Shown here: one piece after another, positions 3,746 to 37,954 of the stretch | How the letters are laid out: the number at the start of each line of letters is the position of its first letter | How positions within the stretch are numbered: position 1 is the first letter of the stretch | From: an uncultured Gammaproteobacteria bacterium | GTDB taxonomy: Bacteria > Pseudomonadota > Gammaproteobacteria > GCA-2729495 | Assembly (NCBI GenBank): GCA_947258805.1 | Contig: CAMYJV010000008.1 | Location: 1-39,604 of the forward strand | Length of the DNA stretch: 39,604 nucleotides | Direction: 5' to 3' | Position numbers and translations under genes: made by a program | Notes under the pieces: generated by a model | What the model was told of the DNA's origin: nothing | Seen by the model: only the letters and a program-made list of their open reading frames with translations | The model's database searches: none

Positions 3746-5290
3746 TTGACCTCCAGCGATTCTCCCGACCCCGTCGCTCAGCCGCTGCTCGATGCGGCCA
3801 TGGCACTTCACCGGCAGGGTGACGGTGCCGACGCGCAAGCCTTGTACACGCAGTTCCTCGAGCAGGTGCCCGGGCACGCACAGGCCTTGCGGCTGGCCGG
3901 TGCGCTGGCGCGGGAGCAGGGGGAATTGCCGCGGTCCCGGGAGTTGCTGCACCGTGCATGTGCAGCGGCGCCGGACGATGCAGCGCCTTTCAACGAACTG
4001 GCCCTGACCTGTCTGGCTGCCGGCGATTTGACTGCAGCTGAAACGGCCCTGCGCGATGCGCTCGCCCGCGACGCGGAGTCGGTGCGGGCCTGGGCCAATC
4101 TCGGGGCGTTGCTGCAGTATCGTGGTCGACTGCATGCTGCGGCGGACTGTCACCGGAAAGTTCTGGCCCTGCACCCGGAAGACCTCGAGGTCCGTTGCAA
4201 CCTGGCCAACACGCTGCTCGACGCGGGCCGCAGCGACGAGGCGCTGGCCGAGTGCAATGAGGCGTTGGCGCGGGCGCCCGGCCACCCGTTGTTGCTCGCT
4301 GCCAAAGGCGCGGTGCTGGTGACTTTGGAACGCGCGCCGGAAGCGCTGGAATGTCTGCGCCTGGCAACCGGCAGGCATCCGGAAGACGACATGGCCTGGA
4401 CCAACCTCGGCCAGGCGTGGCGCCTGCAGGGTGACACTCCGGCCGCGATTCGGGCCCTGGAGCAGGCCCGCGAACGCAATCCGGACAATGCGCGGGCGGT
4501 GGCGGATGTCGTCAATCTGTATTCGGCGGCCGGTGATGGCGAACGCGCGTTGAGCCTCGCGGATGAGTTTTTGCAGCGCCACCCCGGCGAGCGCCTGGTG
4601 CTCGCGTCGCAGGCCATCGCGTTGCGGGATGCCGGCCAGGCAAAGGCTGCAGAGGCCCTGGTAGATCTGCAACACATGATCCAGGTGAGCGACGAAGATC
4701 TGCCGGCGGGGTTCCCGGATCAGCCCACGTTTCTTGCCGCTCTTGCAGACGCGATAAATAATGATGAATCCCTGCTGAGCGAGCCGGCGAGCAAGGCGAC
4801 GCGGGGTGGCCGGCAGACCGGCGAACTGGACCTCGGTGCTGACCCGGCATTGCGGGCGCTGGGCCAGATCTTCGACCGGGCTGTGGGCGATGCCACTGCG
4901 GCGTTACATGAGACCTGCGGCGCCGACCATCCCGCGCTGGCCTACGAAAGCGGCCGCTGGTTGCTGCGCACGTGGGGGACGGTGCTGGACGCGGGCGGCT
5001 GCCAGGCTCCGCACCAGCACCCGCTGGGCTTCCTGAGTGGTGTGTTCTACGTGCAGTTACCTGCTGACATGACCGCGCAGGAGCCGCGGGCCGGGTGGCT
5101 GGAATTTGGTCAGCCGCCGGCGCGGCTGACTTGCCGCAACGCGGTGCCGACCCGCTCCATTGAGCCGCGACCGGCCCGGCTCGTGGTGTTTCCGTCCTAC
5201 TTCTGGCATCGGACGCTGCCATTCCAATCGGCTGAAACCCGCACCAGCATTGCATTTGACGTGGTACCGGTGGCGCCGGACATTGCCTGA
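3746..5290 (+). CDS. TPR protein with C-terminal 2OG-Fe(II) oxygenase-like domain
   Basis: The protein has up to 514 residues. Residues about 15-300 are tandem tetratricopeptide repeats (recurrent patterns such as AWANLGALLQYRGRL and AWTNLGQAWRLQGD). The last 170 residues resemble the putative 2OG-Fe(II) oxygenase family seen after TPRs: a HQHPLGFLSGVFYV segment with candidate iron His residues, and a final FWHRTLPF...RTSIAFDV segment with the distal His and the Arg that would bind 2-oxoglutarate. Such proteins are presumed hydroxylases acting on peptides or small molecules; no activity can be inferred here. The start is uncertain: TTG 3746 is the far upstream choice and ATG 3800 the first in-frame ATG; neither has a clear ribosome site. 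Divergently oriented from the LLM gene. Confidence 0.8.
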   Translation: MTSSDSPDPVAQPLLDAAMALHRQGDGADAQALYTQFLEQVPGHAQALRLAGALAREQGELPRSRELLHRACAAAPDDAAPFNELALTCLAAGDLTAAETALRDALARDAESVRAWANLGALLQYRGRLHAAADCHRKVLALHPEDLEVRCNLANTLLDAGRSDEALAECNEALARAPGHPLLLAAKGAVLVTLERAPEALECLRLATGRHPEDDMAWTNLGQAWRLQGDTPAAIRALEQARERNPDNARAVADVVNLYSAAGDGERALSLADEFLQRHPGERLVLASQAIALRDAGQAKAAEALVDLQHMIQVSDEDLPAGFPDQPTFLAALADAINNDESLLSEPASKATRGGRQTGELDLGADPALRALGQIFDRAVGDATAALHETCGADHPALAYESGRWLLRTWGTVLDAGGCQAPHQHPLGFLSGVFYVQLPADMTAQEPRAGWLEFGQPPARLTCRNAVPTRSIEPRPARLVVFPSYFWHRTLPFQSAETRTSIAFDVVPVAPDIA

Positions 5291-21963: not shown

Positions 21964-24378
21964 TCAGGCAGGCCGCAGACTGCCGTCCGTCGCTTCAATG
22001 TAGGGCACCCAGAGCAGCGCGAAAGCGCGCACTCGCGTATCCGCAGCACGCGGGTTGATGCGCTGCTCTTTCAGCTCCTCGGTTTGTGCATCGTAGGCAT
22101 CCTCGAGATCGGCAACATCATCTTCGAAAGCCGCTTCCAGTTCGGCGAGCCGGGCCTGCACGCGCTGCACGGTCTGTTCCGCGCGCTTCACGTCTGCCGT
22201 CTCGCTGCCAATTCGCCCGGCCTTGCGCACGGCAGTACCGACCCGTGTCGCCGACGTGGTGGAGATCCGCTTGCGGCCGAGGACCGCACCAAGAATCGCC
22301 GCGCCGAAAGACAGGGCCGTGTCCAGCTTCTGCGTCTTGGCCTGTTCGGCCTGGCGCTCCATCGCCTGCTGGGCACGCTGCAAGCGGTCCTCCAGCGTGG
22401 CAACCTTTTTTTCGTATCGTTTACGCAGTTTGGCGACCTTCAAATCGCGCTGCTCATTGCCCAGCTGTTGCAAACGAATTCGGAAATCACGCTCGGTCTC
22501 GGCGGGTTCGGAACTGACTTTCAACGCCGGGCTCTTGTAGAGAATCAGCGGACGGTTGGCCCGCACCCAGCGCTGCAGAGATTTTTCCCAGTCCCGGTGG
22601 GCCTTGGCATCGCCCGCTGCACCGCTGATCTCGGCGAAGGACGCGTCCGGATCGGGCCGCTGGTCCAGTGTGCTGAGTTCCAGTTCAGATTCTTCCGCCA
22701 GGTCCCAGTCTATGTCGCCGATGGCGTCATCTGCTTCGGCGACAAATACGCCGTCGCGCTTCTCGTGAACGTTCAGCCTGGCGTTCTGGTAGCCGGCCTC
22801 CCACGCACCCAGGATGCGCGGGTAGTAGACCAGCCGCTCGCCGTGCTCCGGGTGTTCGGCCGGGTCGGCGAATAATTGCTTCACCGACGGGTCGAGGACC
22901 GGGCGTTGCTGGGCGGCCGGGCGTGCCGGCGGGGTGGCTGCGACGGGTTCGGAGGGTGCCGAAGCCGCTGCAGATTCGGGACCTCGCAGCCGCTGCAGCT
23001 GGTCGCGGGTCAGCGGACCGGCCAGGTAGGACATGACCCACCGCGTTTCCATCAGGACCGGCTCGCGCTCGTGCACGTTGTGCAGCAGGAAACGCCGTTT
23101 GCCGAGACCGGACAGCACGCCGTCGAGGCGGTCCAGGGGCAGGTGCTCGCTGCCGGCGGCACCTTCCAGGCCCTCCCGCACCCGCGCCTTGTCGCGTTCG
23201 GTTTGCAGGCGGCCGATGCACCAGGTGCCCGTGTTGGACAAGGCCTTGTAGTCCAGGTCTACCGGGTTCTGGGTTGACAGCACCAGGCCCAGGCCGAAAG
23301 CGCGGGCCTGTTTGAGCAGAGTCAGGAACAGCGTCTTCGACGGCGGGTTCGCCACCGGCGGCAGGTAGCCGAACAACTCATCCATGTACAGGATCGCGCG
23401 CAGCGAGCCGCTGCCAGGTTGCCGGCGCATCCACGCCACCAGTTCCGCGAGCAGCATGGTGACGAAGAACATGCGTTCGGCGTCGCTGAGGTGGGCAATG
23501 GACATGACCGATACGCGCGGCTTGCCGCTGGCGGTGTACAACAGCCCGTCGATGTCCAGGGGCGGACCTTCCAGCCAGGCTTCGAAACCCGGCGCAGCGA
23601 GCAGGTTGTTCAGCCGCATCGCCAGCGCAAAACGATCTCTGGGCGGGAAAAAGCTGTCGAGGTCCATGACCCCAACGCGGTCGAAGCCGGGTTGCTGAAT
23701 GGCGCCGATCAGGGCTGGCAGATCGAGGCTGCGGCCTTCCTGCCACGCGCGATCCAGGACCGTCGACAGCAGAATGTGCTCCGGGCTGGTAATCGGGTCG
23801 GCCTTGATGTCGAGCAGCGTCAGCAGACCCGTGGCCGCGCTCTGTACCCGTTCGCGCTGCAGGTCCCGGTCGTCGCGCAGTTCGGGCGGCGGCGGGCTGA
23901 ATTCACGCAGAACGGAGATCGGTGTGCCCATCGCGCTGCCGGGGGTATAGATCGCAAAATCGGCGGCCTGGCGCAGCGCCTTGATGCGCGCTGGCGTCTG
24001 TCCCCACGACGCGAGGCCGTCTTTCCAGAGCTTGGCCAGCGTGGCCGCGTATTCCGCGGGCGCCTCGCCGCGATCGGCGGCGGCCCGGGGATCTACCCAC
24101 GGCTCGAAATCCTTGGCTCTCAGCTGCGGGAAGGTCAGCAGCAGGTTGCCCATGTCGCCCTTCGGGTCGATGGCAATGACGGGTACGTGATCCAGGGCCG
24201 CTTCTTCGATTATGGCAACGCCGAGACCGGTCTTGCCGCTGCCGGTCATGCCGATGATTGCCGCGTGGGTCGTCAGGTCCTTCGAGTCGTACAGGACAGT
24301 TTCTGCCGTCGTCTCGCCAGAATCCGCGTCGACCCGCCGACCGAGATAGAACGCACCAAGTTTTTCGTAGTCTTGCAT
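21964..24378 (-). CDS. HerA-like (DUF87-type) ATP-binding protein with coiled-coil tail
   Basis: This is an 804-residue P-loop ATPase of the FtsK/HerA group. Walker A GMTGSGKT lies at 43-50, an IDPKGDMGN segment at about 70-78, Walker B AILYMDE at about 328-334, and a sensor-type STQNPVDLDYKALSNTGTW stretch further on. Residues about 560-760 are charged and heptad-like, with a predicted long coiled coil interrupted by a small Ala-rich segment (SFGAAILGAVLGRKRIS). HerA relatives pump DNA or remodel complexes, often with a nuclease partner. Here a beta-CASP metallo-hydrolase lies upstream on the same strand and a zincin-like protein downstream. Actual role unknown. Start ATG 24378 is the only good one. 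Confidence 0.85.
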   Translation of the reverse strand: MQDYEKLGAFYLGRRVDADSGETTAETVLYDSKDLTTHAAIIGMTGSGKTGLGVAIIEEAALDHVPVIAIDPKGDMGNLLLTFPQLRAKDFEPWVDPRAAADRGEAPAEYAATLAKLWKDGLASWGQTPARIKALRQAADFAIYTPGSAMGTPISVLREFSPPPPELRDDRDLQRERVQSAATGLLTLLDIKADPITSPEHILLSTVLDRAWQEGRSLDLPALIGAIQQPGFDRVGVMDLDSFFPPRDRFALAMRLNNLLAAPGFEAWLEGPPLDIDGLLYTASGKPRVSVMSIAHLSDAERMFFVTMLLAELVAWMRRQPGSGSLRAILYMDELFGYLPPVANPPSKTLFLTLLKQARAFGLGLVLSTQNPVDLDYKALSNTGTWCIGRLQTERDKARVREGLEGAAGSEHLPLDRLDGVLSGLGKRRFLLHNVHEREPVLMETRWVMSYLAGPLTRDQLQRLRGPESAAASAPSEPVAATPPARPAAQQRPVLDPSVKQLFADPAEHPEHGERLVYYPRILGAWEAGYQNARLNVHEKRDGVFVAEADDAIGDIDWDLAEESELELSTLDQRPDPDASFAEISGAAGDAKAHRDWEKSLQRWVRANRPLILYKSPALKVSSEPAETERDFRIRLQQLGNEQRDLKVAKLRKRYEKKVATLEDRLQRAQQAMERQAEQAKTQKLDTALSFGAAILGAVLGRKRISTTSATRVGTAVRKAGRIGSETADVKRAEQTVQRVQARLAELEAAFEDDVADLEDAYDAQTEELKEQRINPRAADTRVRAFALLWVPYIEATDGSLRPA

Positions 24379-24383
24379 TTTAC

Positions 24384-24530
24384 GTCTCCACCGGAGTCAC
24401 TAGCACGGTGCAGCTAGCAGTCCGATAAGGTCTTTGTCTCCACCAGGATCACCAGCACGGTGCAGCCAGCAGTCCGATAACGCCTTCGCAGAGTGAGGTC
24501 ACCAGCATTCTGCAGCAGGGACTCCGATAA
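24384..24530. repeat. Three degenerate tandem repeats upstream of the HerA-like gene
   Basis: Copies end at 24428, 24480 and 24530, each with CCGATAA, giving a period of 50-52 bases. The first two 45-base copies differ at about five positions; the third is more diverged. Each contains a CAGCA(C/T)...TGCAG motif; in the first two the centre GCACGGTGC is palindromic. They occupy the leader/promoter region of the ATPase gene. Confidence 0.75.
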
Positions 24531-24548
24531 AAAATTGCATCTTAACCA

Positions 24549-25964
24549 TCAATCCACGGGCGCCTTCTTGAGATTGTCCAGATCGATTTTCAGTCCAGGC
24601 CGCGACAGCTGCACCCACGCCGCATCAGACCGCGCCAGGCGCTCGCTGAAAGCTTCGGCCGCATCGGGTTCGCCATGTACCAGGCAGACCGGGGGCCTGT
24701 TGGCGAAGCCCTCGTACCAGCGAATCATATCGTCCTGGTCGCCATGGGCTGACAGCCCGCCAACCGTGTGAATCTTCGCGCGCACCTTGATCGTCTCGTG
24801 GTGAATGCGCACGTAATCGTGACCGTCTACCAGGCGCCGGCCCAGCGACCCGCGCGCCTGGTAGCCGACGATAATGACCTGGCATTCCGGCCGCCACAGG
24901 TTGTGCTTGAAGTGGTGGAGGATGCGTCCGCCGGTGCACATGCCGCTGCCGGCAATGACAATGGCGCCGCTCTTCATCTGGTTGATTCGCCGCGACTCGT
25001 CGGCGCTGCGCGACATGCCGAGGTTGGGCAGCAGCCTGGCCTGCTGGCTGCGTTCGTGCAGGCGCGTGGCCTCGCTGTCGTAGAGCTGCGGATAGCGTCG
25101 GTACACGTCGGTGGCTTCGATGGCCATCGGGCTGTCCAGGTAAATCTGCCACCGCCCAAGTTGCCATTCGTCGTAGTGCTTGCTGAACTGGTAAAGCAGC
25201 TCCTGGCTGCGGCCGACGGCGAAGGCCGGAATCAGCACGTTGCCCCGGTGATGATCCGCCTCGGCAATGATCTCGGCGATTTCGGCGATGGTTTCCGCGC
25301 GGTCGCGATGCTGGCGGCCGCCGTAGGTGCTCTCCATCATCACGAGGTCAGCCTCGGCAATCGACTCGGGATCGTTCAGTATCGGGGTGCCGTACTGGCC
25401 CAGGTCGCCGCTGAAGACCAGCTTGCGCCGGGTGCCCTTTTCCTCGATCGAGACCTCGACGGTGCACGAACCCATGATGTGCCCGGCATCGCGAAAAGTG
25501 ATTTCGACGCCCGGTGCGACCTGCTGTGGCTGGCCGTAGGGTACGGCTTGCATCTGCATACAGGCCTGCTCTGCATCTGCCTCGCTGTACAGGGCTTCGA
25601 TAGGCTTCAATCCCTTTCGGGCGCGTTTCCGGTTTTCGTTCTCGACATCGCGCTCGCCCAGGCTGGCCGAGTCTTTCAGCATGATCCACCCGAAGTCGCG
25701 GGTGGCCGGGTGCGCGTAAATCGGGCCGGTGAAACCGCGCTTCACGAGCAGGGGCAGCCGGCCCGAGTGGTCAATGTGGGCGTGGCTCAGGACCACCGCA
25801 TCGACTTCCGACGGGGTGAATGGAAAGGGGTCGCGATTGCGGGCCTCCGCCTTGCGCCCGCCCTGGATCATTCCGCAGTCGAGCAGCACGCGCCGGCCCC
25901 CCACGTGCAGGATGTGGCAGGAGCCGGTGACTTCGCCGGCAGCCCCGAACAGTTCCAAGTGCAT
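24549..25964 (-). CDS. Metallo-beta-lactamase fold hydrolase with beta-CASP and RNA-specificity domains
   Basis: The 471-residue protein has the MBL zinc motif SHAHIDHSG (His61, His63, Asp65, His66), a GHIMGS motif, and FSGDLGQYGTP. The beta-CASP domain (PAFAVGRSQELLYQF and DSPMAIEAT) and the C-terminal RMMBL segment (HTVGGLSAHGDQDDM, VHGEPDA) are complete. This family includes RNA endo/exonucleases related to CPSF-73 and is common in bacteria under the label 'MBL-fold RNA-specificity domain'. Start ATG 25964 begins the first MBL strand; a longer reading to 26042 has no homology. No strong ribosome site is seen. First gene of the minus-strand group with the HerA-like ATPase. Confidence 0.93.
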   Translation of the reverse strand: MHLELFGAAGEVTGSCHILHVGGRRVLLDCGMIQGGRKAEARNRDPFPFTPSEVDAVVLSHAHIDHSGRLPLLVKRGFTGPIYAHPATRDFGWIMLKDSASLGERDVENENRKRARKGLKPIEALYSEADAEQACMQMQAVPYGQPQQVAPGVEITFRDAGHIMGSCTVEVSIEEKGTRRKLVFSGDLGQYGTPILNDPESIAEADLVMMESTYGGRQHRDRAETIAEIAEIIAEADHHRGNVLIPAFAVGRSQELLYQFSKHYDEWQLGRWQIYLDSPMAIEATDVYRRYPQLYDSEATRLHERSQQARLLPNLGMSRSADESRRINQMKSGAIVIAGSGMCTGGRILHHFKHNLWRPECQVIIVGYQARGSLGRRLVDGHDYVRIHHETIKVRAKIHTVGGLSAHGDQDDMIRWYEGFANRPPVCLVHGEPDAAEAFSERLARSDAAWVQLSRPGLKIDLDNLKKAPVD

Positions 25965-26048
25965 GATGTTAAAACCTATATTATCTGAGACTCGGTCGTC
26001 CGCGCGCCGTTGTGGTTCTGCTAGACTTCGTTTCGCCAACAATAATAG

Positions 26049-26784: not shown

Positions 26785-27576
26785 TCACCAGCCGATCAGT
26801 CGGCCGTCCTCGTAATTCAGGAACTGGCCGTTGTTGTCCAGGGTCAGGCCATCGATAACCTTGATCATCTTGGCGACGGACTCCTCCGGCTCTATCGCGT
26901 TCGGCATCTTCATCCCCGGCGTGGTGTTCACCGTGCCGGGTGACAGCAGTACCGTGGTGATGCCTTTCTTTGTTGTTTCAAAAGACAGGGTGTACATGTA
27001 CATGTCCAGGGCGGCCTTGCTGCCGCGATAGCTGTACATCATCGGCATCTTCGGGCCTTCGGCAAACGAGCCGGCCTTGCTGGACATCATGATGATTTTC
27101 TTCTGCTGCGAGGCCGCGACATTCGGCATGAAGGCCTGCGCAAGCTTCAGCGGTGCCAGTGCGTTAACCTCGAAGCTCTGCCTTGCCATGTCGAAATCGA
27201 TGCCTTTCACGCGCTGAAAAGCTGTCTTGTAGCGCGGCGTAATCGCGGCATTGCTCAGCAGGATGTCGATGGGCTGGTCTGCGTAGGCCTCGGCGAGGGC
27301 GTCAATGCGGGCGTGATCCGTGACGTCCAGCTGCTCCACCACAACCTGCTCATACTCTTTTGCCACTGCGTTCAGTTCTTCAGCGGCCTCGGGCTTTCGT
27401 GCTGTCGCGATGACGTTGTAGTCTCGCGCGGCAAACTGGCGCACGAACTCCAGGCCGATGCCGCGGTTGGCACCCGTGATCAGGACCGTGGGCCGGTCGG
27501 GATTCAAGCCCGCCCACGATGGTGCACCGAGCACCAGCAAAGCGGCGCAGGCCGCTGCCTTCAACAGATCGAGCAT
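26785..27576 (-). CDS. Short-chain dehydrogenase with Sec-type signal peptide
   Basis: A 263-residue classical SDR. Cofactor motif TGANRGIG follows strand PTVLI, SNAAI replaces the NNAG motif, and the catalytic Tyr-x3-Lys is YRGSK, preceded by the MMSSKAG Ser strand. The first 22 residues (a short LLK, an Ala/Leu hydrophobic core, then APSWAG) look like a Sec signal peptide with cleavage after WAG. Start ATG 27576 has AAAGGTG seven bases upstream; ATG 27624 has no ribosome site and would put polar residues ahead of the signal. An SDR exported by Sec would meet no NAD(P) in the periplasm; the segment may instead be a membrane anchor with the enzyme in the cytoplasm. Confidence 0.88.
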   Translation of the reverse strand: MLDLLKAAACAALLVLGAPSWAGLNPDRPTVLITGANRGIGLEFVRQFAARDYNVIATARKPEAAEELNAVAKEYEQVVVEQLDVTDHARIDALAEAYADQPIDILLSNAAITPRYKTAFQRVKGIDFDMARQSFEVNALAPLKLAQAFMPNVAASQQKKIIMMSSKAGSFAEGPKMPMMYSYRGSKAALDMYMYTLSFETTKKGITTVLLSPGTVNTTPGMKMPNAIEPEESVAKMIKVIDGLTLDNNGQFLNYEDGRLIGW

Positions 27577-27714
27577 GTCAGTCACCTTTCCCCGAGTTTC
27601 ATGGGCCTGAGACGAAGGAGGCATTTTGCCACGCCGGCCATGGGAAGTATGAATCTGTGGCCAAGCGGTGGACGAAAACTGGGGTAGAATCGGGGTCAGG
27701 CAACCGGGATTAGC

Positions 27715-28797
27715 ATGGAACAGGCGAGCGACAAATCCACAGAGGGCAACCGTTTCGCGGCCGAGCTGCTCGAGCGGGGTGCGTCCGGTTATGCCGGCTT
27801 TGCCACCAACCTGATGCTGGAAAAAATTCCAGACGCGAAGCAGCGCTATGAACCCGACGCTTTCGCCACGTGGAAGACCTACATGACCCAGCGCATCCTC
27901 GAGCTGGCAGCGGCGGTCGGCACCGGGGAGCCCCTGCTGTTTTCCTCACGGGTGATGTGGTCACGTAAAGCATTCCTGGCTCGCAATCAGCACGAAGACG
28001 ATCTCGCGGTCAGCCTTAGTGCGCTGAAGGACGTTCTGGCCGACAACCTGCCTGGGCCCGCCGGCACGGAGGCCGTGGAATACGTCGAGCAGGCCCTCGA
28101 CACATTGTCGACCGCCCGGCCTGAGCTGGAAGAGACGGAACTCGACCCGCAGCGACCCCATGACCGTCTCGCACTGCGTTATCTGCAGGGAGTCCTGGAA
28201 GGCAATTGCGCTGAAGCGATCAACGATGTCCTCGCGGCGGCGGAGGGCGAAATGACGCCCATGGATATTTACCTGAAGGTGCTGCTGCCGGCGCAGCGCG
28301 AAGTCGGCCGGCTCTGGCACCTCGGTGACATGACTATTGCCGAAGAGCACCTCGTAACTTTTGCAACCCAGCGAGCCATGGCGGCGCTGGTGCAGTCGAT
28401 TCCGCCCGAGAAGTTCAACGGCAAGACACTGGTTGCGGCAGCGGTGGCGGGTAACGTTCACGACATCGGCCTTCGCGCGGTGAGTGACGTCTTTCAGCTG
28501 GCCGGCTGGCGCACAATTTTCCTCGGCGCCGACGTACCGATGCAGGACTTGCCGCCAACGCTGACTTTTTTTGACGCTGATCTGCTGATTCTGACAGCTG
28601 CATTAAGCACCCAGCTGCCGCGAGTTCGATATACCATCAGCGCTGTTCGCGACCGCACTGCGCGCGACGTGAAGATCCTGGTCGGCGGGGCCGCCTTCGA
28701 CGACGCGCAGGAGATCTGGCGAAAGGTGGGCGCCGACGGCTATGGGCCTACCATCGACGAGGCGCTGGCAGTCGGCCGACAGCTGGTCGGACTCTGA
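27715..28797 (+). CDS. Stand-alone cobalamin-binding protein with CarH-like W-x9-EH motif
   Basis: A 360-residue protein. Residues about 150-230 match a B12-binding helical-bundle domain and contain Trp201 followed by exactly nine residues and Glu211-His212, the W-x9-EH motif that marks CarH/LitR-type light-sensing B12 domains. Residues 238-360 form a Rossmann B12-binding domain with NVHDIG (His249 as candidate lower ligand), GADVP and VGGAAF. The usual DxHxxG begins with Asn rather than Asp. The N-terminal 150 residues are helical and show no MerR-type HTH, unlike CarH. This resembles AerR-type B12 regulators in lacking DNA binding, though relation is not proven. The next gene begins two bases after its stop, so it is co-translated with the DUF427 gene. 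Confidence 0.85.
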   Translation: MEQASDKSTEGNRFAAELLERGASGYAGFATNLMLEKIPDAKQRYEPDAFATWKTYMTQRILELAAAVGTGEPLLFSSRVMWSRKAFLARNQHEDDLAVSLSALKDVLADNLPGPAGTEAVEYVEQALDTLSTARPELEETELDPQRPHDRLALRYLQGVLEGNCAEAINDVLAAAEGEMTPMDIYLKVLLPAQREVGRLWHLGDMTIAEEHLVTFATQRAMAALVQSIPPEKFNGKTLVAAAVAGNVHDIGLRAVSDVFQLAGWRTIFLGADVPMQDLPPTLTFFDADLLILTAALSTQLPRVRYTISAVRDRTARDVKILVGGAAFDDAQEIWRKVGADGYGPTIDEALAVGRQLVGL

Positions 28798-35743: not shown

Positions 35744-37954
35744 CTACCGGCTGATGTCCGGGCCCGGTTGCACTGCCCATGCGAACAGTTTCCGGTGTTC
35801 TTCCGGAATTTTGTCGTACTCGCCGGCAGGGATCGTCAGGGCAGGCTGTTTAGAGAAGTTCTTGTTGTCAGCAAACCAGCGCTGCTGATACACCATGTTC
35901 AGGATCGGCCGTACCTGGTCTGTCTTGTTGCCGAGACCCGCGTGCGACAGCCGCATGTCCATCAGGAAACAGGAACCGACATCTACGATCGGCAGCTGGC
36001 GCGGCAGGTCGGCGGAATCAGGCCGGGACAACTGGTGACTGCCTTTGCGCACGGTCGTCGTGCCGGTCATTTCGTCCAGCGGCACCAGCGGCACCATCGT
36101 GGTGATCGCAAACGGTGGCAACGCCATCGGTGGGTCATCCACGTCTTTCGTGAACAGGGCGCGATGGTCCTTGTGCAGATGCTGGTCCTTGGCGCCCGGC
36201 AGGGATGCGGCACACACGGTGCAGCCCAGCTGGAACTTCGATCCGAGCAGACGCTGCATCAGGTTCATGATGAAGGGGTTGGCGTAAATTCCCGGGTTGT
36301 TGAAGGGGCCCTCGATGGCAAAGGTGATCTGGTAACGCTTGTTGCCAATCGATAACGCATCCGGCTGACTGCCGGGGCGAAAATAATCGGCATACTCACG
36401 AACGAAATGCTCTCTGCAGGTGTTGATCAGCTCCGCATCGAACACATTCTCGATTACCAGCACGCCGTATTCGAAAAACAGTTTACGGGCCAGCTCAACG
36501 GACTCGGGCCGCAGCCGTCCCGCCTCCAGTTCGGCCGCCGAAACGGGCAGCGTCGGCGCCACTTCCGGGCGGCGGGCCTCTTGCACGCAGCGTCTCATCC
36601 GAGTGGCGCGATCGAGATCCTCTGCGGCCATCTTCGACGACGCCCCTAGATGAATCGACCGGCGAATTGACGAAATGGCTTCGTCGATACGCAGTTCTTC
36701 CAGCAACGCCTGGCCGTAGTCGTGGTGCAGACTCGCATCGTCCGGGTTTAGCTCCAGCGCATCGCCGTACACCGCGAGGGCCTCCGAGCGCTTCCCGCGC
36801 TGTTGCAGCGTGCGCGCCAGTTGGGCGTTGGCAGCCGGATCGTTAGGGCTCGTCGCCAGGTACCGTCGCAGCAGGGCTTCGGCGCGGTAGGGTCGCCCCT
36901 TGAGTCGGTAGTCCAGCGCGCAGCGCAACAGCGCATTACGATTCCCCAGGGCAAGCAGGTCGCACAGGTCCAGCAGGTCGCTGAGCCGCGACAGCAGCAT
37001 GCGCCGCACCCGGCGGCGATAGCTGCGACTGTCCGACGGGTAATCTGCATACCAGACCAGGTGCTGGATGAGACCGGCGCACACCGCCGCCGGCAGGGCC
37101 CGATGCAGGTCTTCCGGCGCGGCATAACCAGCGCCGGCCAGCGCATGCATGTATAAATCGAGGGCATACTTCATCGGCCCCGTGTTCTCAATTTTGCTGG
37201 CTGCCCCGGGATCCATGTAAAGCGTTGCCACCGTCGCGCAACCGGAGAACAGTGCCTGCAGGGACAAACCGGCAGGACCCACCGTCGCGTGCTCCCAGTT
37301 ACTGAGAACGATGCGCCTCTCGGGGGTTTCCGACGCGTTCTTCAGGCGAAGGTCGCAGTGATTCACCGTTGGCGGGACTTCGGCGGCCAGGTTGACGAAT
37401 GACTGCAGCAGATCGGCGCGCACCGACAACGCGGCGTGATAATTTTTTGCCTTGCCGCGCCCGATGAAATAGGCCGCCGTGGCCTTGTCACCGGCCCCTT
37501 CGCCGGGGTCATCCAAAAACTCCAGCAGGGCTGGCACGAGCTGCCCGAGATCGATGGTGGGGAACAGTTCCAGGAGTTCCGGGAGGCGCCGGGCGCGGCC
37601 CTGCATTTCCGCGTAGGCTTCCAGCAGTTTGCGGTGGGATTTATAGTCGGCATCGCTTTCCAGCCTCCGACCCCGCGGATCCTTCAGGATGAGCAGGCCC
37701 AGGTCGGCATTCGTGGATATGACATCCGGTATCTCGCCGGCGAATCGCTGCGCGAGTGCCACCGTCGTTTCCAGTGACGGGGTGAGGTGCGGCGACAGCT
37801 GCTTGCGATAGGCTCTCTCGCTCTTGCCGTTCAGCTTGTGCACCCGGGCCCACGGCGCCACGCTGACCAGTTCACTGGAACTGAACTCCAGGCGCGCCTT
37901 TGCCCATTGCAGTGCGTGGTCGTCAGTTACATAGGCTTGTTGTTGAACCGCCAT
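35744..37954 (-). CDS. Three-domain fusion: APH-like kinase, TPR, PhyH oxygenase
   Basis: This is a 736-residue multi-domain protein. Residues about 40-300 resemble an aminoglycoside-phosphotransferase/choline-kinase-like domain: the catalytic loop is HCDLRLKN (His199, Asp201, Asn206), and the metal-binding segment reads SNWEHATVGPAG, where Asn219 replaces the usual Asp. Residues about 340-445 are TPR-like (PNDPAANAQLARTLQQRGKRSEAL). Residues about 485-736 form a phytanoyl-CoA dioxygenase domain, with HLHKD iron ligands (His594, Asp596), distal His671 and Arg682. A phosphotransferase, or a degenerate pseudokinase, fused to a 2OG oxygenase suggests a two-step modification of one target; substrate unknown. 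No good alternative start is apparent. Confidence 0.82.
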   Translation of the reverse strand: MAVQQQAYVTDDHALQWAKARLEFSSSELVSVAPWARVHKLNGKSERAYRKQLSPHLTPSLETTVALAQRFAGEIPDVISTNADLGLLILKDPRGRRLESDADYKSHRKLLEAYAEMQGRARRLPELLELFPTIDLGQLVPALLEFLDDPGEGAGDKATAAYFIGRGKAKNYHAALSVRADLLQSFVNLAAEVPPTVNHCDLRLKNASETPERRIVLSNWEHATVGPAGLSLQALFSGCATVATLYMDPGAASKIENTGPMKYALDLYMHALAGAGYAAPEDLHRALPAAVCAGLIQHLVWYADYPSDSRSYRRRVRRMLLSRLSDLLDLCDLLALGNRNALLRCALDYRLKGRPYRAEALLRRYLATSPNDPAANAQLARTLQQRGKRSEALAVYGDALELNPDDASLHHDYGQALLEELRIDEAISSIRRSIHLGASSKMAAEDLDRATRMRRCVQEARRPEVAPTLPVSAAELEAGRLRPESVELARKLFFEYGVLVIENVFDAELINTCREHFVREYADYFRPGSQPDALSIGNKRYQITFAIEGPFNNPGIYANPFIMNLMQRLLGSKFQLGCTVCAASLPGAKDQHLHKDHRALFTKDVDDPPMALPPFAITTMVPLVPLDEMTGTTTVRKGSHQLSRPDSADLPRQLPIVDVGSCFLMDMRLSHAGLGNKTDQVRPILNMVYQQRWFADNKNFSKQPALTIPAGEYDKIPEEHRKLFAWAVQPGPDISR

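Follow-up and report, generated by a model that had tools for sequence, protein, structure and literature searches.

Photocobilins such as SasPcob (8J2W/8J2X) and AbDPcob (8J2Y) were defined by two coupled pigments, and the predicted members include forms with a C-terminal adenosylcobalamin (AdoCbl) domain, both domain orders being counted (PMC10979010, section 9). Photoglobins reportedly carry a CXQD motif (PMC10151467), and Asp270 of SasPcob was described as a key biliverdin contact (PMC10979010). For B12-dependent light sensing, the four signatures GxxW, EH, GxxH and GxxxP have been defined (PMC11796333, section 8), and His132 of TtCarH ligates the cobalt in the light form, the same position being Gln in SasPcob, Tyr in AbDPcob and Arg in CtMerR (PMC11796333). 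Here we describe a relative of these proteins, encoded at positions 27715..28797 (+) of a 39,604-nt stretch of DNA from an uncultured gammaproteobacterium (contig CAMYJV010000008.1; the whole stretch is called the window below). It consists of a photoglobin, related to the light-harvesting globins of cyanobacteria, followed by a CarH-like B12 domain, and with a probability of about 0.7 we read it as a probably bilin-free, reversed photocobilin, in which a CarH-type AdoCbl light switch would use the photoglobin as signalling domain and act through a partner. Reversed photocobilins are already in print, whereas the residue-swapped clade to which the gene belongs is the new part; neither this clade nor its sigma-factor and cyclopropane-fatty-acid (CFA) synthase context was described in the literature found, with supplements and the original photoglobin paper outside its scope.

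The sensor gene (P0001) starts with ATG and codes for 360 aa, with an all-helical photoglobin domain at residues 9-134 (27739..28116), a four-helix B12 cap at residues 155-225 (28177..28389; PF02607, Pfam 2.9e-14) and a Rossmann B12 domain at residues 239-351 (28429..28767; PF02310, Pfam 1.4e-18), all on the forward strand. The photoglobin was recognised by sequence, in the alignment to SasPcob, and by fold, in a predicted model with a phycobiliprotein-like fold. SasPcob and AbDPcob share both domains with the query by sequence and fold, as well as the W/EH/H pocket and the equivalent of Trp296, but the domain order is reversed, the B12 domain of the query being C-terminal to the globin. As Pfam gave nothing besides PF02607 and PF02310 up to E 0.1, no helix-turn-helix (HTH) is recognised. 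The original prediction, made from the sequence alone, had claimed exactly this absence in the N-terminal region, and the structure prediction that it had proposed for this region agreed, returning the photoglobin fold that had been overlooked and no HTH. AerR, which had been named there as a related B12 regulator without an HTH, has to give way to the photocobilins because the N-terminal region is a photoglobin. AerR/PpaA proteins have a B12/SCHIC fold and no HTH and act as antirepressors of the partner PpsR/CrtJ. Both AerR/PpaA (7TE2) and the SCHIC domain of AppA are counted among the closest known systems, and the AerR fold is similar to that of the query; membership in AerR appears less likely, since the photocobilin match is stronger and extends across both domains. 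CarH and LitR carry a MerR HTH where the query has the photoglobin, so direct DNA binding is not expected, and the NCBIfam CarH model NF052513, which has its cut-off at 400 bits, scored the query at 53.7. In the BBAG-2 globins, a phycobiliprotein-like globin likewise works near a B12 protein, but these are separate proteins with an RGMC motif and demonstrated biliverdin binding (PMC10151467), while the query has neither RGMC nor CXQD.

All four light signatures are present in the B12 domain, and its model matched photocobilins, CarH and AerR, which supports the CarH-type domain of the original prediction. Residue counts refer to 121 sequences, namely the query and the 120 listed homologues of 534 found, and hold among these listed matches. 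The W-x9-EH motif that had drawn attention to the gene (W201, nine residues, E211-H212) is the only one in the six frames of the whole window, and with W201 and E211 in 121/121 and H212 in 120/121 sequences it is kept across the homologues and is therefore a conserved family trait and not a chance match. Trp201-His202 (28315..28320, +) correspond to Trp131-His132 of TtCarH, Glu211-His212 (28345..28350, +) belong to the adenosyl pocket, Asn247-x-His249 (28453..28461, +) places His249 at the lower axial ligand position, and Gly271-xxx-Pro275 (28525..28539, +) is the fourth light signature. Thus the pocket W131-H132-x8-E141H142 with axial H177 of CarH and class II LitR is matched by W201, H202, E211, H212 and H249; His202 directly after Trp201 and the axial His249 were found in all 121 sequences, the Gly of GxxH in 97. 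Two positions differ from the photocobilins: the adenosyl-contacting Trp is followed by His, where SasPcob has Gln and AbDPcob Tyr, and the residue two before the axial His is Asn instead of Glu or Asp. This Asn247, already noticed in the original prediction as the unusual first residue of NVHDIG, is real and family-wide (120/121) and might, as proposed there, influence ligation by the axial His, which is itself invariant.

In the globin domain, WKTY at residues 53-56 (27871..27882, +) stands in place of CXQD, with Tyr56 at the position of SasPcob Asp270 (alignments A2 and A4) and Trp at that of the Cys. Trp82 (27958..27960, +) corresponds to the corrin- and bilin-contacting Trp296 of SasPcob by ungapped alignment, is invariant in A2 and was kept in all 121 sequences; for the numbering, the chain position in 8j2w equals the residue number of the paper minus 6, in agreement with Trp61 and Trp296. 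The same spacing of 20 from Asp to Phe and 26 from Asp to Trp was found in relatives that keep the motif as CLQD, CVED, SLQD, ARED or, in Streptomyces, TAED. Among the listed matches the Cys site was Trp throughout (121/121), and the Asp site was His in 105, Tyr in 9, Asn in 4, Phe in 2 and Ser in 1, but never Asp. Because the Asp that binds biliverdin has disappeared from the clade, the globin is probably bilin-free and would act as a signalling or docking surface.

A tree of 63 B12 domains, from which the globin site was excluded and which did not include the partial matches L025 and L042, placed the query in a mostly gammaproteobacterial clade of 45 rows (support 100/98). Within it, Trp at the Cys site and His after the adenosyl-contacting Trp (W+1) were found in 45/45 rows and Asp in 0/45, site 56 being mostly His. 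The globin-bearing rows outside the clade kept Asp in 10/11 cases, with Asn in Ilyobacter, and had Gln (4), His (3, spirochaetes), Ala (2), Met (1) or Glu (1) at W+1. As CarH also has His at W+1, either residue state could be ancestral. Seven rows have no site-56 state, as L035 and L037-L041 are without an N-terminal globin and L036 has a long, unaligned N-terminal region. Matches below E 1e-70 occurred in 40/196 sampled genomes from the order of G001, the genome with the 91% ortholog (3.49 Mb chromosome record); one of them (G195) is split in two pieces. The relative L027 belongs to Thioalkalivibrio sp. XN8, apparently an isolate. Three members or relatives stood out. In the clade row L024:8001-9071, beside a fasciclin gene, ER replaces EH in the adenosyl pocket, so that this protein is possibly light-insensitive. 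Contig C4 of G042 carries three full-length relatives (263748, 287507, 479155) with 41-47% identity to the query, possibly paralogues with different partners. In Ilyobacter polytropus, the gene of a relative that reads MYEN in place of CXQD shares bases with a neighbouring GGDEF gene (L045:2776-4819); as this bacterium is an anaerobe, a light sensor is unexpected there.

On this reading the protein would be a soluble light sensor that holds AdoCbl in the dark, with His249 below the cobalt and the adenosyl group enclosed by Trp201, Glu211 and His212. Cleavage of the Co-C bond by green or blue light could then allow His202 to take the upper cobalt site, as His132 does in TtCarH. A changed oligomer or domain contact on the side of Trp82 might be read by a partner protein, with genes for light and photo-oxidative stress responses as probable outputs. 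The light- or redox-responsive B12 sensor acting through a partner that the original prediction had proposed is supported as a probable light sensor, although the photoglobin had been missed. As to cofactor supply, the PduO adenosyltransferase was over cut-off in 23/23 clade genomes and BtuR in 0/23.

To compare gene neighbours, the nearest open reading frames (ORFs) were hand-picked: 96 out of 198 crude ORFs at 26 clade loci, among them the window, with one start shortened, and 40 at 10 non-clade loci, some with the gene ends of the record; the 25 commonest of 75 and of 38 families, respectively, were considered. In the clade these comprised NAD_binding_10 (11), adh_short (8), the CFA-type synthase family CMAS (6), sigma-70 region 2 (6), DUF427 (5), the resistance-nodulation-division (RND) pump (3) and fasciclin (2), with no histidine kinase or GGDEF among the 25 commonest families, single occurrences being possible. 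Outside the clade HATPase_c (6), HisKA (5), response regulators (4), GGDEF (3), SpoIIE (2) and STAS (2) were found. The six sigma factors belong to L013, L014, L015, L017, L023 and L028, of which L014 and L015 are close kin, and an RskA-type anti-sigma factor accompanies the one at L023. DUF1365 occurs in 16/23 clade genomes, and in 9 of these, including one Krumholzibacteriota and one Planctomycetota bin, it is no more than 6 kb away from the sensor; a crude estimate that ignores kinship gave a chance of ~1e-15 for this proximity. At the Planctomycetota locus L028, genes for CFA synthase, DUF1365, an FAD oxidase, the sensor, an extracytoplasmic function (ECF) sigma factor and fasciclin are grouped. 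A clade side branch (L019:4765-9053, L020, L031) directly follows an RND efflux pump gene of the AcrB family; the ECF-linked copies L014 and L015 share their bins with the RND-linked L019 and L020 (the pairs L014/L019 and L015/L020 being the same two bins).

Elsewhere, such neighbour sets are under the control of LitR or sigma-E/ChrR. In Pseudomonas mendocina, the region around class II LitR contains photolyase, short-chain dehydrogenase (SDR), FAD oxidoreductase and furan-fatty-acid synthase genes (PMC9758184), and the RpoE/ChrR-listed genes of R. sphaeroides include photolyase, CfaS, the putative cyclopropane synthesis genes RSP_1090/91, a GPH symporter, an SDR and the fasciclin RSP_1409 (PMC7074977). 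The FAD oxidase/DUF1365/CFA cluster of clade members also adjoins a MerR-B12 gene in G013. Among seven genomes with DUF1365 away from the photoglobin, a MerR-B12 gene lies beside DUF1365 in G013 and G014 and ~4 kb from it, next to photolyase, in G019, whereas G021 has a nearby match to the MerR part alone. Among the nine with DUF1365 near the photoglobin, only G020 gave a match across the MerR and B12 parts. In G007-G012 and G016 an extra B12 protein was matched exclusively outside the HTH, and G010 encodes a stand-alone B12 protein of 222 aa (L057:1616-2284) with its own W-H-x8-EH and no space for a globin or MerR domain. In these small numbers the photoglobin may hold the place of LitR at DUF1365 loci; a strict replacement was not upheld, the pattern being suggestive at most. 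G001 itself has a photolyase and no MerR-B12 match spanning both domains.

Several observations weigh against a bilin-free sensor with the proposed outputs. The folds of both sensor domains come from models, and the equivalence of Tyr56 and Asp270 needs the ungapped alignment to be extended by six residues beyond Trp82. A strict coupling between loss of Asp and gain of His was rejected, as the three spirochaete rows with His at W+1 keep Asp. The 29 window ORFs scanned contain no ECF or CFA gene, and DUF1365 was found neither in the window nor in the nearest genomes G001-G005, so its context elsewhere does not fix the target of this gene. Furthermore, AbDPcob, in which His occupies the position of the Asp, still showed ~20% biliverdin binding and a red-light response (PMC10979010, sections 6 and 7); as this named photocobilin is also without Asp, absence of Asp lowers the claim of bilin binding and not the kinship. 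A dual-chromophore photocobilin with green and red sensitivity, in which Tyr56 or His56 would do the work of Asp, would also agree with the intact phycobiliprotein-like fold of the model and the invariant Trp82. We consider it rather unlikely in view of the missing Asp and the Trp at the Cys site in all listed matches. Heme oxygenase was over cut-off in just 1/45 close-relative genomes, although other biliverdin sources are possible: PF01126 was over cut-off in 0/27 genomes (23 clade, 4 Asp-keeping; one sub-cut-off match in G023), G001 has none, and 1/22 further genomes, with site 56 not read, had a match (G038, 24.9 vs 23 bits). This absence is weak evidence for bilin loss, since all four Asp-keeping genomes searched are also without the enzyme and most genomes are possibly incomplete bins, and its use as a discriminator was dropped.

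A role apart from light, as a corrinoid methyl-group carrier or an AerR-type B12 or redox sensor, appears highly improbable: the scores for MtbC (71.6 vs 350 bits) and MtgC (70.5 vs 370 bits) lie far below the curated NCBIfam cut-offs, on which a methyl-group carrier was rejected, the listed matches retain both the light signature of CarH and the equivalent of its His132, and no corrinoid methyltransferase occurs in the 25 commonest clade neighbour families. If the bilin-free photocobilin is correct, the clade would provide a naturally occurring B12 photoswitch with one pigment and no HTH, some members lying beside ECF sigma factors. As the clade keeps the globin-B12 architecture without the bilin contact, a role of the globin beyond the colour range can be addressed. 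Since LitR reads the neighbouring gene set in pseudomonads and sigma-E/ChrR does so in Rhodobacter, the finding also bears on the rewiring of light sensing through B12 and of the control of photo-oxidative stress. More tentatively, it is possible that the whole reversed-photocobilin clade works without a second pigment on CarH-type bis-His B12 photochemistry, and that its phycobiliprotein fold, left without a pigment and with Trp where the Cys had been, took over the part played in LitR by the MerR HTH and now docks ECF sigma/anti-sigma factors or other partners in a light-gated manner, which would give a direct light pathway from B12 to a sigma factor in photo-oxidative stress.

In the window, a DUF427 gene (PF04248; 28799..29314, +) starts one base past the sensor stop, so that both likely share an operon; the same adjacency was found at L004, L005 and L006. 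A scan for promoters and terminators gave a single weak promoter match and a single weak terminator match, which both fall within the sensor ORF, and six peptide patterns had no match in viral contigs. Divergent to the sensor and 90 bp upstream lies an SDR gene (26785..27624, -), whose product has, judged by eye, a hydrophobic start resembling a signal or anchor peptide, which is odd for an SDR. A HerA-type ATPase gene (DUF87 match) beside a beta-CASP metallo-hydrolase gene (21964-26042) also adjoins the sensor in the nearest relatives (L004). Finally, the window contains two luciferase-like monooxygenase genes (PF00296; 2593-3669 and 31411-32427) and two TPR proteins with distinct dioxygenase-type C-terminal domains, 2OG-FeII_Oxy_5 and PhyH (3746-5290 and 35744-37954).
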